Source: Maribacter sp. PR1 (GTDB lineage: Bacteria > Bacteroidota > Bacteroidia > Flavobacteriales > Flavobacteriaceae). From it: DNA of 64,000 bases. Positions within the stretch are counted from its first letter, which is position 1, and each line of letters begins with the position of its first letter. The DNA lies in contig NZ_JAQPCG010000003.1 of the NCBI RefSeq assembly GCF_028464145.1, positions 248,001-312,000 of the forward strand. The letters run 5' to 3'. The notes under the pieces were generated by a model that had not been told where the DNA came from, made no database searches, and saw nothing but the letters and a program-made list of their open reading frames with translations. Below are positions 17,814 through 44,841 of this stretch, piece after piece. Made by a program: the position numbers and the translations under genes.

Positions 17814-17833
17814 GGTCGAGCGCAGTCGAGACC
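17814..17833. repeat. REP-like palindrome copy 1
   Basis: GGTCGAGCGCAGTCGAGACC, an imperfect palindrome preceded by TTGTCT. Its reverse complement differs at one base from the element between hisD and hisC at 44816-44835, and it is related to the insertion inside hisA. Confidence 0.75.
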
Positions 17834-39375: not shown

Positions 39376-40131
39376 CTAAATTCTAACAGGAATTCCCTCT
39401 TTCCGTAATTCCTCCTTTAAATCCTTAATTTTAATTTCCTTAAAATGGAAAACACTAGCGGCCAAGGCAGCATCGGCTTTTCCTTCCTTAAAGGTATCCG
39501 TAAAATGCTGAATATTTCCGGCACCACCGGAAGCTATAATAGGAATATTCAATTCACCGGACAATTTTGAAAGCGCTACATTGGCAAATCCATTTTTAGT
39601 CCCATCGTGATCCATGGAGGTAAAAAGGATTTCTCCGGCACCGCGTTCTTCAACTTCTTTGGCCCATTCGAATAGTTTACGTTCCGTAGGGACTTTCCCC
39701 CCTACCAAATGAACAATCCATTCCCCATCAATCTGTTTGGCATCAATGGCCACCACGATACACTGAGAGCCAAATTTGGCTACTAGGTCATTAATCAATT
39801 GGGGATTCTTTACTGCTGAGGAATTAATGGATACTTTGTCCGCACCGTTATGAAGTAAAATGTCCACGTCTTCAACGGAGGAGATTCCCCCACCCACCGT
39901 AAATGGAATACTCACTTTCTCTGCTACATGATACACCAATTCCGCCAAAGTCTTTCTTTTCTGTTCCGTTGCCGAAATATCCAAGAAAACCAGCTCATCA
40001 GCACCCTCTTGACTATATATTTCGGCTAACGCTACGGGGTCTCCGGCATCCCGTAGATCCACAAAATTAACGCCCTTCACGGTTCTTCCGTCTTTTATAT
40101 CCAAACAGGGTATTATTCTTTTTGCTAACAT
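39376..40131 (-). CDS. hisF: Imidazole glycerol phosphate synthase cyclase subunit
   Basis: 251 residues, (beta/alpha)8 barrel. [19 protein letters not shown] at the N-terminus carries catalytic D11, and D130-equivalent lies in [20 protein letters not shown] binds phosphate. With HisH it forms IGP and AICAR. The normal partner order hisA-hisF is interrupted here by two inserted genes, and the start codon overlaps the end of the four-helix-bundle gene. Confidence 0.95.
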
Positions 40132-40538
40132 AACTTAAAGGTACAAGGGTAAAGGTTTGAGGTACAAGTATATCGTATAAATTGTTTATTATTATCTGTT
40201 TTTTTCGCAGTTTTTATGGATGCCACTGTAATAGCTAATAACTCTGAAGCTTCTTTCTTTAATGGAATTATTTCAGGTTCAAGTTCTGGCCGCACTTCCA
40301 AAAAAAGTTCTAACCAATACACAGACTCATCAGCTTCTTCCTTTACAATTTTAAGTTTATTGATAAAATCTGCAGTGGATTTTGCCCTTTGAGAAGCACG
40401 ATAATTTGCACCAACCGGTCTAGAACATCGAATTAACTGCCTTGCCCAAGCATCATATTCTCGAGATTTAGGAAGCTTGGAGCAAAAATGCCAACAATCA
40501 ACAGCAAATTTTTGAGTTCTAGATTTTAAATTCTGCAT
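40125..40538 (-). CDS. Four-helix-bundle protein (23S rRNA intervening-sequence type)
   Basis: 137 residues. The pattern [15 protein letters not shown]...[33 protein letters not shown] and a final helix matches the family of small four-helix-bundle proteins (TIGR02436) first known from intervening sequences of 23S rRNA genes. The last ~15 residues are encoded by the flanking repeat and the stop codon lies inside the hisF start region, consistent with insertion of the unit here. Function unknown. Confidence 0.85.
40138..40168. repeat. Left inverted arm flanking the four-helix-bundle gene
   Basis: AGGTACAAGGGTAAAGG TTTGAGGTACAAG, imperfect inverted match of 40564-40598. It lies between the four-helix-bundle coding core and the hisF start. 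Confidence 0.6.
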
Positions 40539-40599: not shown

Positions 40600-41115
40600 T
40601 TATTCATTTTTAGTATTCAAATCCAGTCCGTCATAAAATCCAAGGTCTTTGTTTCTTAATAATTTCACCCAAAAGGCTATTTGTCCGGTATGATAGGAAT
40701 AGTGTTCAACGGCATGCATAATAACACCCACGCCCGAAAAAGAAAAACCTTGAACTGAGCGAATCTTTACCAATTGCTCCGACCTTGCATCAAAAATGAC
40801 TCGTTTTGCCGTATCCACGGTGTCTTTCAATTTTTTAAGCAATTCTAGTTTAGTTAGTCCACCGGATGCCGAAAACTCAGAATCCCGTTGTCTGTCATCT
40901 TCATTTTCACCCAATGAGGAGATTATATATTGCGTGATATTACCACAGAGATGGAGTATCAGGTTTCCCATACTGTTAAGTGAATCGTTGGGTTTTTGCC
41001 ATATTTCTTCCTCAGATATATTGCTTAGGCTTTTATTAATCATCCGAGTACTTTCCTCCATTCTGTACAGGGCGTTTTTGACCAACTCCTCTACTAACTG
41101 TGCTTCTTTATCCAT
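40600..41115 (-). CDS. DinB-like (DUF1572-type) helical protein in the his operon
   Basis: 171 residues, a four-helix bundle with His residues placed as in the DinB/YfiT metal-binding superfamily: [10 protein letters not shown] (~H55), then [17 protein letters not shown] (~135-150) near the C-terminus. Some relatives are thiol transferases; the function here is unknown. It overlaps the end of hisA by 8 bp, so it is translationally coupled to the histidine genes. Confidence 0.82.
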
Positions 41116-41938
41116 GATTTAGTATAAACGCTTCCAATTGTTTTAAACGGATTCTATTTTCGTAAATGGCTTTACCAATAATGGTTCCCTCACATCCCAT
41201 TTCCGCAAGTTTCGGCAACTCTTCAAAGGTGGAAATACCACCGGAAGCAATTAGTTTCAGGTCTGATGTCCCCTTGAGCGACCTTTGCCCAGCGGAGTCG
41301 GGGTAAGTCGAAAGGTCTTCATTAGTTCTCGACTTCGCTCGAACTGACAGGTTATAATTATTTGTGCTTTCCAATATCTTTCTGTATAATTCAAACGAGG
41401 GACCCTGCAGCATACCGTCCTTGGAAATATCGGTACAGATAACATAGGTGATACCTTTTTTTTGATAGTTCTGAATAAAGGGTATCAATTCCTCTTTCGA
41501 TTCTTCCTGCCAACCGGAAACCGCAACTTTTTCGTCCGTGGCATCCGCACCGAGGATAATTTTATCTGCGCCATGTTTTGCAATCCATCCTGTAAATACT
41601 TCCCTGTTTTTTACGGCGATACTACCTCCTGTAATTTGACTGGCTCCGCTTTCGAAAGCAATCTTTAAATCATCATCCGTTTTTAAACCACCTCCAAAAT
41701 CAATCTTCAGATTTGTATTTGAAGCAATTTGCTCTAAAACTTTATGATTTACAATATGCTTGGATTTTGCGCCGTCCAGATCTACCAAATGCAGGTATTG
41801 TATTCCGTGGGCTTCAAACTCCTTGGCAACTTCCAAAGGATTTTCATTGTATATTTTCTTGGTATCATAATCTCCCTTGGAGAGCCTTACGCACTTCCCT
41901 TCTATGATATCTATAGCTGGAATTATTCTCATTTTCAT
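41108..41938 (-). CDS. hisA: ProFAR isomerase carrying a 30-residue repeat-derived insertion
   Basis: 276 residues against ~240-250 for the family. [21 protein letters not shown] carries the catalytic Asp (D10), and D170 in [11 protein letters not shown] is the second. Residues ~197-226 (from [13 protein letters not shown] to SLKGTSD) have no counterpart in the family; without them the junction reads [12 protein letters not shown] as expected. The extra segment lies between helix 6 and strand 7, on the side opposite the active site, so the enzyme is probably active. It isomerises ProFAR to PRFAR. Confidence 0.93.
41258..41352. mobile_element. 90-bp palindromic element inserted in frame in hisA
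   Basis: CAGGT at 41258-41262 and again at 41348-41352, exactly 90 bp apart, flank sequence with two palindromic halves: GTTCTCGACTTCGCTCGAAC (41325-41344) and a GACCTTT...AAAGGTC arm pair. The first half matches the palindromes at 17814 and 44816. The length is a multiple of three and contains no stop in the hisA frame. A 5-bp duplication is what a transposition-like event would leave. Confidence 0.8.
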
Positions 41939-41947
41939 TAGTAACTT

Positions 41948-42529
41948 TTACATTTTCAAAAAATTCACTAGGATACGCTCTCCAATATCACTGCTCTTTT
42001 CGGGGTGAAACTGAGTTCCATAAAAATTATCATGCATTAAAGCAGCACTATAATCTACGCCATATGAAGATGTGGCAATGGTTTGCTTACAGATGGGTGC
42101 ATAAAAACTATGGACTAAGTAAATATGGCTTTTCTCATCAACATCATTAAACAAAACCGATTTGAGCTTTGCAATTTGATTCCATCCTATCTGTGGCACC
42201 TTTACCTTTTTGGAAAATCGGACAACATCTACATCAAAAATACCTAGCCCTTTCGTATTCCCCTCTTCGGATCCATTGCACATCAACTGCATTCCCAAAC
42301 AGATTCCCAGTACAGGTTGCGTCAAAGTAGGAATCAATTTATCCAGATGACTTTCCCTCAGTTTTTTCATGGCGCTACTCGCCTCGCCCACTCCGGGGAA
42401 AATAACTTTATCGGCGTTTCTTATTTCATTCACATCATGACTTAGAATTGCTTCATATCCCAATCTTTTTATGGCAAATTTGATGCTCTGTATATTTCCC
42501 GCACCATAATTAATAATGACAATCTTCAT
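41948..42529 (-). CDS. hisH: Imidazole glycerol phosphate synthase glutaminase subunit
   Basis: 193 residues, class I glutamine amidotransferase. FPGVGEAS, the nucleophile elbow GICLGMQLM with Cys ~77, and GTQFHPEKSS with the His-Glu pair are all intact. It delivers ammonia to HisF. It is 9 bp from hisA and 83 bp from hisB, where the gap holds nothing recognisable. Confidence 0.95.
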   Translation of the reverse strand: MKIVIINYGAGNIQSIKFAIKRLGYEAILSHDVNEIRNADKVIFPGVGEASSAMKKLRESHLDKLIPTLTQPVLGICLGMQLMCNGSEEGNTKGLGIFDVDVVRFSKKVKVPQIGWNQIAKLKSVLFNDVDEKSHIYLVHSFYAPICKQTIATSSYGVDYSAALMHDNFYGTQFHPEKSSDIGERILVNFLKM

Positions 42530-44815: not shown

Positions 44816-44841
44816 GGTCTCGACTCCGCTCGACCTGACAA
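44816..44841. repeat. REP-like palindrome copy between hisD and hisC
   Basis: GGTCTCGACTCCGCTCGACC followed by TGACAA; it fills the 41-bp gap between the hisD stop and the hisC start. One mismatch to the reverse complement of 17814-17833. Confidence 0.75.

Follow-up and report, generated by a model that had tools for sequence, protein, structure and literature searches.

Results

The hisA insert

The window, i.e., the whole analysed stretch of 64,000 nucleotides, lies on contig C17 of the 4.73-Mb host genome (G000, Maribacter sp. PR1) and contains a hisA gene whose upstream neighbour we take to be hisH; a presumed hisF follows past two small genes, both his assignments being made from the sequences (Table 1). 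The hisA search returned only one other match in the host genome, at the place of hisF. The claim of the preliminary description that a repeated palindrome lies in frame within an intact hisA was borne out by the open reading frame and by the profile match of the insert. About 30 extra in-frame residues are added between helix 6 and strand 7 and, on the coding strand, TGTCAGTTCGAGCGAAGTCGAGAAC is followed by a linker and by an inverted second palindrome with a GGGGACA end (41349-41267).

Table 1. Features of the window discussed in the text, with positions given in the window.
Feature	Position	Strand	Remarks
REP core copy	17814..17831	+	G000:C17:265814-265831, L118; no ORF of at least 80 aa over it
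hisF (presumed)	39376-40131		past two small genes
23S rRNA-intervening-sequence-type protein	40125-40538		between hisA and hisF; PF05635
DUF1572/DinB-like protein	40600-41115		between hisA and hisF
hisA, insert included	41108..41938	-	open throughout, 276 aa; family models PF00977, TIGR00007
CAGGT copy 1	41258..41262	+	flank; from the sequence
REP dimer, outward tags	41267..41349	-	coding strand TGTC (41349-41346) to GACA (41270-41267); HMM E=7e-8 for the first half
Second half, inverted, CCTTTCGACTT...CGCTCAAGGGGACA	41267..41315	-	encodes (D)LST...SLKGT
Palindrome-like extra stretch in the loop of the second half	41281..41304	-	looks nested, by eye
First palindromic half, TGTCAGTTCGAGCGAAGTCGAGAAC	41325..41349	-	encodes (L)SVRAKSRT
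CAGGT copy 2	41348..41352	+	overlaps the element's own GACA end/tag; from the sequence
hisH (presumed)	41948-42529		upstream neighbour of hisA
REP core copy	44818..44835	-	G000:C17:292818-292835, L119; no ORF of at least 80 aa over it

Both family models, PF00977 and TIGR00007, are split over two stretches of HisA, the better of which ends at residue 193 or 199, and in the solved HisA structure 4gj1 about five residues bridge the two aligned stretches. An AF2 model based on 25 aligned sequences is a barrel (mean pLDDT 83, pTM 0.82) in which residues 206-223, between a helix (182-205) and a strand (228-232), stay below a pLDDT of 50; Foldseek gave HisA and PriA as the top PDB matches of this model. 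The low-pLDDT loop and the 4gj1 alignment agree with the placement between helix 6 and strand 7 proposed beforehand. In (beta-alpha)8 barrels, the alpha6-beta7 loop belongs to the face away from the active site. The repeat element is thus confirmed to sit in frame in an intact hisA, in the alpha6-beta7 loop. At the RNA level, the 95-nt hisA segment folded no better than its shuffles (z=+0.5, with an equal or better fold for 132 of 200), so that the hisA copy is not a strong hairpin and an RNA hairpin in this copy was rejected.

Distribution and structure of the repeat

An 18-base motif of the repeat, allowing up to three mismatches, matched 41 times in the host genome, compared to a single match for the motif read backwards. 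The only match with zero mismatches is the hisA copy, the arms of which differ from those of most host copies. With the intergenic palindromes at 17814 and 44816 reported earlier as similar, the core is shared, each being one mismatch away from the motif, but the arms differ. A segment at G000:C19:52563-52647 matches the whole hisA insert segment at 74%. Within 25 kb of the host genome (G000:C19:39894-64676), 16 of the 41 motif matches are found, some of them in tandem. In related genomes, core matches numbered 122 in G165, 101 in G213, 46 in G119 and 30 in G114.

An HMM was built on 92 distinct copies from the host and six other genomes of the family, none of them from hisA, and scored the hisA copy of the window with 29.7 bits. 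At a fixed spacing, 83 of the 92 copies carry the tag TGTC and two carry CGTC. The repeat unit measures about 25 nt and dimers about 56-100 bp. In the forward frames, 92, 84 and 90 of the copies are free of stop codons, and in the reverse frames 73, 76 and 34, compared to about 61-67 of shuffled copies.

The scanned loci contained 25 dimers with outward TGTC...GACA tags. None of these is adjoined by a direct repeat of at least four bases (about 0.6 expected), and the earlier reading of the two CAGGT copies, spaced by 90 nt in hisA, as a target-site duplication is consequently not supported as a general feature; flanking direct repeats of the classical MITE kind are likewise absent at this length. 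No relative near enough to reveal the empty hisA site or to fix the junctions was found among the hisA genes compared. Five cases of a REP nested in another were detected by pattern in the scanned loci (L120, L126, L132 and L139 of the host as well as L293 of G119), with the inner REP retaining its own tag, and by eye the second half of the window's insert and the loops of L043, L063 and L087 also look nested.

Recurrence in the same HisA loop

The hisA gene was read from 219 of 220 loci (all but L189), which gave 193 distinct genes. At E<0.01, the HMM matched 13 of these, every time in the alpha6-beta7 loop, and the best match elsewhere had an E of 5.8. A looser search for the core with one mismatch allowed found it in 29 of the 193 alpha6-beta7 loops (8,721 nt) and nowhere in the remaining 134,331 nt of hisA, while a shuffled-loop control yielded a mean of 0.55 in 193. 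In a sample of one genome per genus, 10 of the 108 hisA genes read contained the core. Reverse-strand cores occur in the loops of L063, L108, L150 and L151. The copies of L150 and L154 have top profile scores and, on this basis, look young.

In the 13 loops that were measured, the tag lies between +4 and +25 nt and takes different codon phases, i.e., phase 1 in seven loops, phase 2 in five and phase 0 in one decayed copy (L054); the HPELVEG loops of Leeuwenhoekiella likewise begin at phase 0. A single shared insertion is inadequate as an explanation, because phase and position differ among the loops. Conservation of the extra segment at protein level across HisA, which would have refuted the initial reading, was not observed, as sequence, frame and position vary from one REP-type insert to the next.

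From the genus of the window, 35 genomes gave a hisA match and 30 genes were read. The insert of the window is the sole one of its kind among these 30; a different REP-like insert is present in six genes (L004-L008, L016), and the loops of the other 23 are short (8-11 aa).

Counting events on a tree of HisA only gave 21 changes for 29 core-bearing tips and was dropped as too noisy, since a control loop class termed SGVED, which is conserved in sequence, needed 13 changes for 15 tips on the same basis. This SGVED-like conserved loop of about 25 aa lies at the same place in L069, L086, L095-L097, L106, L110, L148, L152, L153, L155, L157, L159, L164 and L169. It resembles the REP-coded SLSAVED of L004-L008 and is possibly a domesticated old insertion. 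In L193 (G227), two REP cores were seen at the 5' end of hisA, where an N-terminal extension would be possible if an upstream start were used.

Copies in other genes

The host genome harbors a further in-frame copy, namely in metG (G000:C1:686226-686243; L114, L319), where the long ORF encodes methionyl-tRNA synthetase. Among 30 metG genes read from the same genus (Maribacter group), 16 have the core, all in one loop, and none was found in the 46,836 nt of metG outside it; a core at the same site is also present in metG of G165. MetG is a second hot spot. For trpF, the core was found at one site in G165, G119 and G064 (3 of 27 trpF loops read), and no rate is claimed here because the query trpF itself bore an insert.

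Of 30 host loci read, six have an ORF of at least 80 aa over the core, i.e., L113 (hisA), L114 (metG), L122-L124 and L126 (113 aa). At L122-L124, the frame lies upstream of a GIY-YIG gene whose own ATG is downstream of the REPs, and the intragenic count for the host is restricted to hisA and metG. Nine further host stretches (L310-L318) comprised two 100-aa ORFs and, in a transporter-like ORF, one match with three mismatches, all of which were judged spurious.

In G119, the core fell into an ORF of at least 100 aa at 12 of 34 loci, or 11 of 35 after an adjustment by judgement, which added hisA (L151) and removed two loci: L288, where the core is N-terminal and the start is uncertain, and L297, which resembles a native SecD motif. 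Core-bearing genes named by Pfam include trpF, purL, leuS, two acyltransferases and diphosphomevalonate decarboxylase, as well as ribD in G165. The ORF survey gave 32 hits among 130 distinct cores, some of which are chance matches because up to two core mismatches were accepted. In the vicinity of the hisA loci, 42 further coding matches outside hisA were by eye nearly all due to chance (conserved codons, one-mismatch pattern) and are not claimed as REPs.

A short GIY-YIG gene between inverted REPs

Near host REPs, a 104-aa GIY-YIG protein is encoded at G000:C19:50916-51227 (match to the domain model PF01541 at 3e-18), and the unit at G000:C19:50872-51258 (L417:1457-1843) consists of this short gene between inverted TGTC-REPs. 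The subfamily of about 100 aa is present in 34 of 149 genomes of the family. Loci were given for 41 subfamily matches, which resulted in 30 loci, and the catalytic Y, YxG, R, H and E are kept in all 26 copies with the motif out of these 30. Within 300 bp, 27 of the 30 loci have an exact REP core on one or both sides, 23 on both sides and 21 as an inverted pair, with L445 scored as having no REP owing to an incomplete flank. Controls had REPs on both sides in 0 of 111 cases (UvrC-length or fused GIY-YIG 0/11, hisA 0/28, metG 0/30, trpF 0/30, other GIY-YIG 0/12) and on at least one side in 8 of 111 (hisA five, other GIY-YIG two, trpF one, metG and UvrC-length or fused GIY-YIG none). The GIY-YIG controls came from a separate set of 30 loci, seven of which (L387, L389, L390, L396, L397, L401, L410) were left out as subfamily members or suspected members. 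The genus set comprises 29 loci and includes more distant GIY-YIGs; here, REPs were present on one or both sides at 18 loci, on both sides at 10 and as an inverted pair at six.

Six loci were compared at the DNA level with the host unit plus flanks of 1.5 kb, and for that of G007 (L447) the entire context is shared. In three of the five non-syntenic loci (L419, L449, L450), homology ends at both REPs; at L418 it extends over the gene plus the 3' REP, and at L448 it continues into a neighbouring REP array. Some GIY-YIG matches with internal stops or truncation look decayed (L433, L442, L444, L453 and G045:C50:10156-10437), as is expected for decaying mobile elements.

Counting genomes without a listed subfamily match as negative within the range searched, the subfamily occurs in 6 of 8 genera with a REP in hisA versus 20 of 75 other genera (p=0.010; p=0.025-0.029 when one genus, which had been classed by eye, is excluded or assigned to the opposite class). 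It is absent in G056 and G114 despite their hisA REPs, for G114 as judged from its place among the genomes without a listed match.

Discussion

We consider it likely that the hisA insert represents a REP dimer, belonging to a TGTC-tagged family of the examined Flavobacteriaceae, which entered the gene within the Maribacter-group lineage and survives in a tolerant loop. Survival would be favoured because the dimer landed in the alpha6-beta7 loop, which is tolerant and variable in length, and because most frames of the repeat lack stop codons and the encoded peptide is short and probably disordered. The hot spots in HisA and MetG would then be made by purifying selection on insertions rather than by a DNA target.

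A target at the DNA level, with REPs homing to a sequence or to an older REP in the loop, would explain the hot spots by targeting instead of tolerance. The nested REPs described above could be products of such homing, and cores are indeed denser in hisA loops (29 in 8.7 kb) than in nearby non-coding DNA (29 distinct in 85 kb). However, both the entry point and the phase vary, the same family occurs in unrelated loops of MetG, TrpF and PurL, and the short loops of 23 of the 30 same-genus hisA genes hold no core to home to, which makes this option unlikely, though of some weight. Less plausible is a single ancient hisA insertion that was rewritten in place via recombination with other genomic REPs. 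Some Leeuwenhoekiella loops do resemble, by eye, a REP joined to the remnant of another (L054, L085, L101), but differing phases in one loop would require compensating indels, the core-less short loops of most same-genus genes do not fit, and the young appearance of the copies in L150 and L154 also renders such a history rather improbable.

With regard to the enzyme behind the spread by insertion and selection, the GIY-YIG nuclease is a candidate mobiliser of the TGTC-REPs, as suggested by its genomic setting. An autonomous element would comprise a TGTC-REP, the gene and a REP-GACA in about 390 bp, the nuclease acting on the REP ends, and dimers of the hisA type would represent non-autonomous, MITE-like short derivatives with the same ends. 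That the short GIY-YIG endonuclease with its inverted TGTC-REPs is the missing mobiliser of TGTC/CGTC-REPs, and forms a new minimal transposable element whose dimers add peptides to loops of core enzymes, is put forward tentatively, as a possibility somewhat short of an even chance. An alternative option is that the REP flanking of the gene could reflect a landing preference of REPs there.

In the RAYT picture, an enzyme gene is bracketed by inverted REPs, and REPs are scattered through the genome. TnpA-REP/RAYT genes flanked by REPs are described in parts of PMC6006769, and the unit reported here is similar in that an enzyme gene lies between inverted REPs; it differs by encoding a GIY-YIG nuclease in place of a Y1 HuH transposase and by the tag TGTC. 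REPs of the GTAG type, driven by such a Y1 transposase, perhaps in some genomes or in the past, could account for the missing target duplications at the 25 dimers. Moreover, PF01797 matched in 5 of 15 searched genomes (G005, G117, G122, G178, G211), and since all five have a REP-like hisA insert, RAYTs may play a role in some genomes. A search of the host genome with PF01797 (RAYT family, Y1 transposase) gave no match, so that RAYT was rejected as mover in the host; the model was also unmatched in G165, G213, G119 and G114, and 83 of 92 copies bear TGTC rather than GTAG. Altogether, a RAYT-driven repeat appears improbable. An adaptive use, by which peptide or mRNA would alter HisA stability, partner contact or expression of the his operon, could build on the recurrence in the same loop, but is highly improbable given that sequence, frame, length and position of the inserts all vary, that the insert has a pLDDT below 50 and folds like its shuffles as RNA, and that unrelated enzymes show the same insertions.

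In-frame palindromic elements are known from genes of Rickettsia conorii (RPEs; Ogata 2000, 2002; as described in parts of PMC10969869 and PMC3733652). As with RPEs, a palindromic repeat lies in frame in many intact core genes, hisA and metG in the case of the host, and is tolerated by the protein. The comparison by description with these two sources also gives differences, i.e., another host phylum and a unit of about 25 nt with dimers of about 56-100 bp, compared to RPEs of about 150 bp. Moreover, the repeat reported here is found time and again in one particular loop of an enzyme across several genera. The RPEs had been cited in the preliminary description as a rare precedent. The precedent for in-frame insertion holds, but the rarity does not, as in-frame copies are frequent in the genomes of the family that were read; the wording was an understatement because HisA, MetG and TrpF carry such copies repeatedly in the same loops and because in-frame REPs have been reported in several phyla.

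The repeat also resembles the CGTC-tagged REP superfamily, which features a 4-base tag by a short palindrome, dimers and intragenic copies (Di Nocera 2013, PMC3733652), and to which RPE-4 and RPE-6 are assigned in that text. The tag is altered to TGTC in many repeats (section 6), the stem of 8-9 bp opens with two A-T pairs and encloses a loop of 4-5 nt, and the 3-nt tail has the consensus CCA. Intragenic CGTC and GTAG REPs, in frame, are known from several phyla (section 15). The repeat of the host shares the tag (including the two CGTC copies among 92), the dimers and the intragenic copies. It differs in the tails, which in the printed copies read by eye are TAA, TCA and similar instead of CCA. 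One copy of the host genome folds with a stem of 5 bp that contains mismatches. A further difference to the superfamily is the REP-flanked GIY-YIG gene, since Table 1 of the same paper gives no association with transposase genes for the CGTC class. From GTAG REPs, the repeat is set apart by its tag, TGTC. As tag, dimers and intragenic copies agree with the superfamily whereas the tail, as read here, does not, it is called TGTC-tagged and CGTC-like and is not a proven member. REPs at about the same recB site in two Xanthomonas species (PMC3733652, section 15) provide a parallel for same-site intragenic copies in related species, which in the present case extend across several genera and more than one gene.

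Within the open-licence literature searched, supplements excluded, nothing was found on in-frame palindromes in Flavobacteriaceae, and no paper linked GIY-YIG with REPs; earlier reports are possible, e.g., in Additional file 3 of PMC3733652. As far as these searches reach, the same-loop recurrence in HisA and MetG across genera or species and in several frames is new, as is the REP-flanked GIY-YIG gene.

The short GIY-YIG endonuclease offers a concrete candidate enzyme for a class of REPs that is listed without transposase genes (Di Nocera 2013, Table 1, PMC3733652). Moreover, outside Rickettsia, mobile palindromes have repeatedly extended housekeeping enzymes by new protein sequence, always at the same loops and with the use of several frames. 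Whether selfish repeats feed protein evolution thereby becomes a testable question with ordinary enzymes, e.g., HisA.
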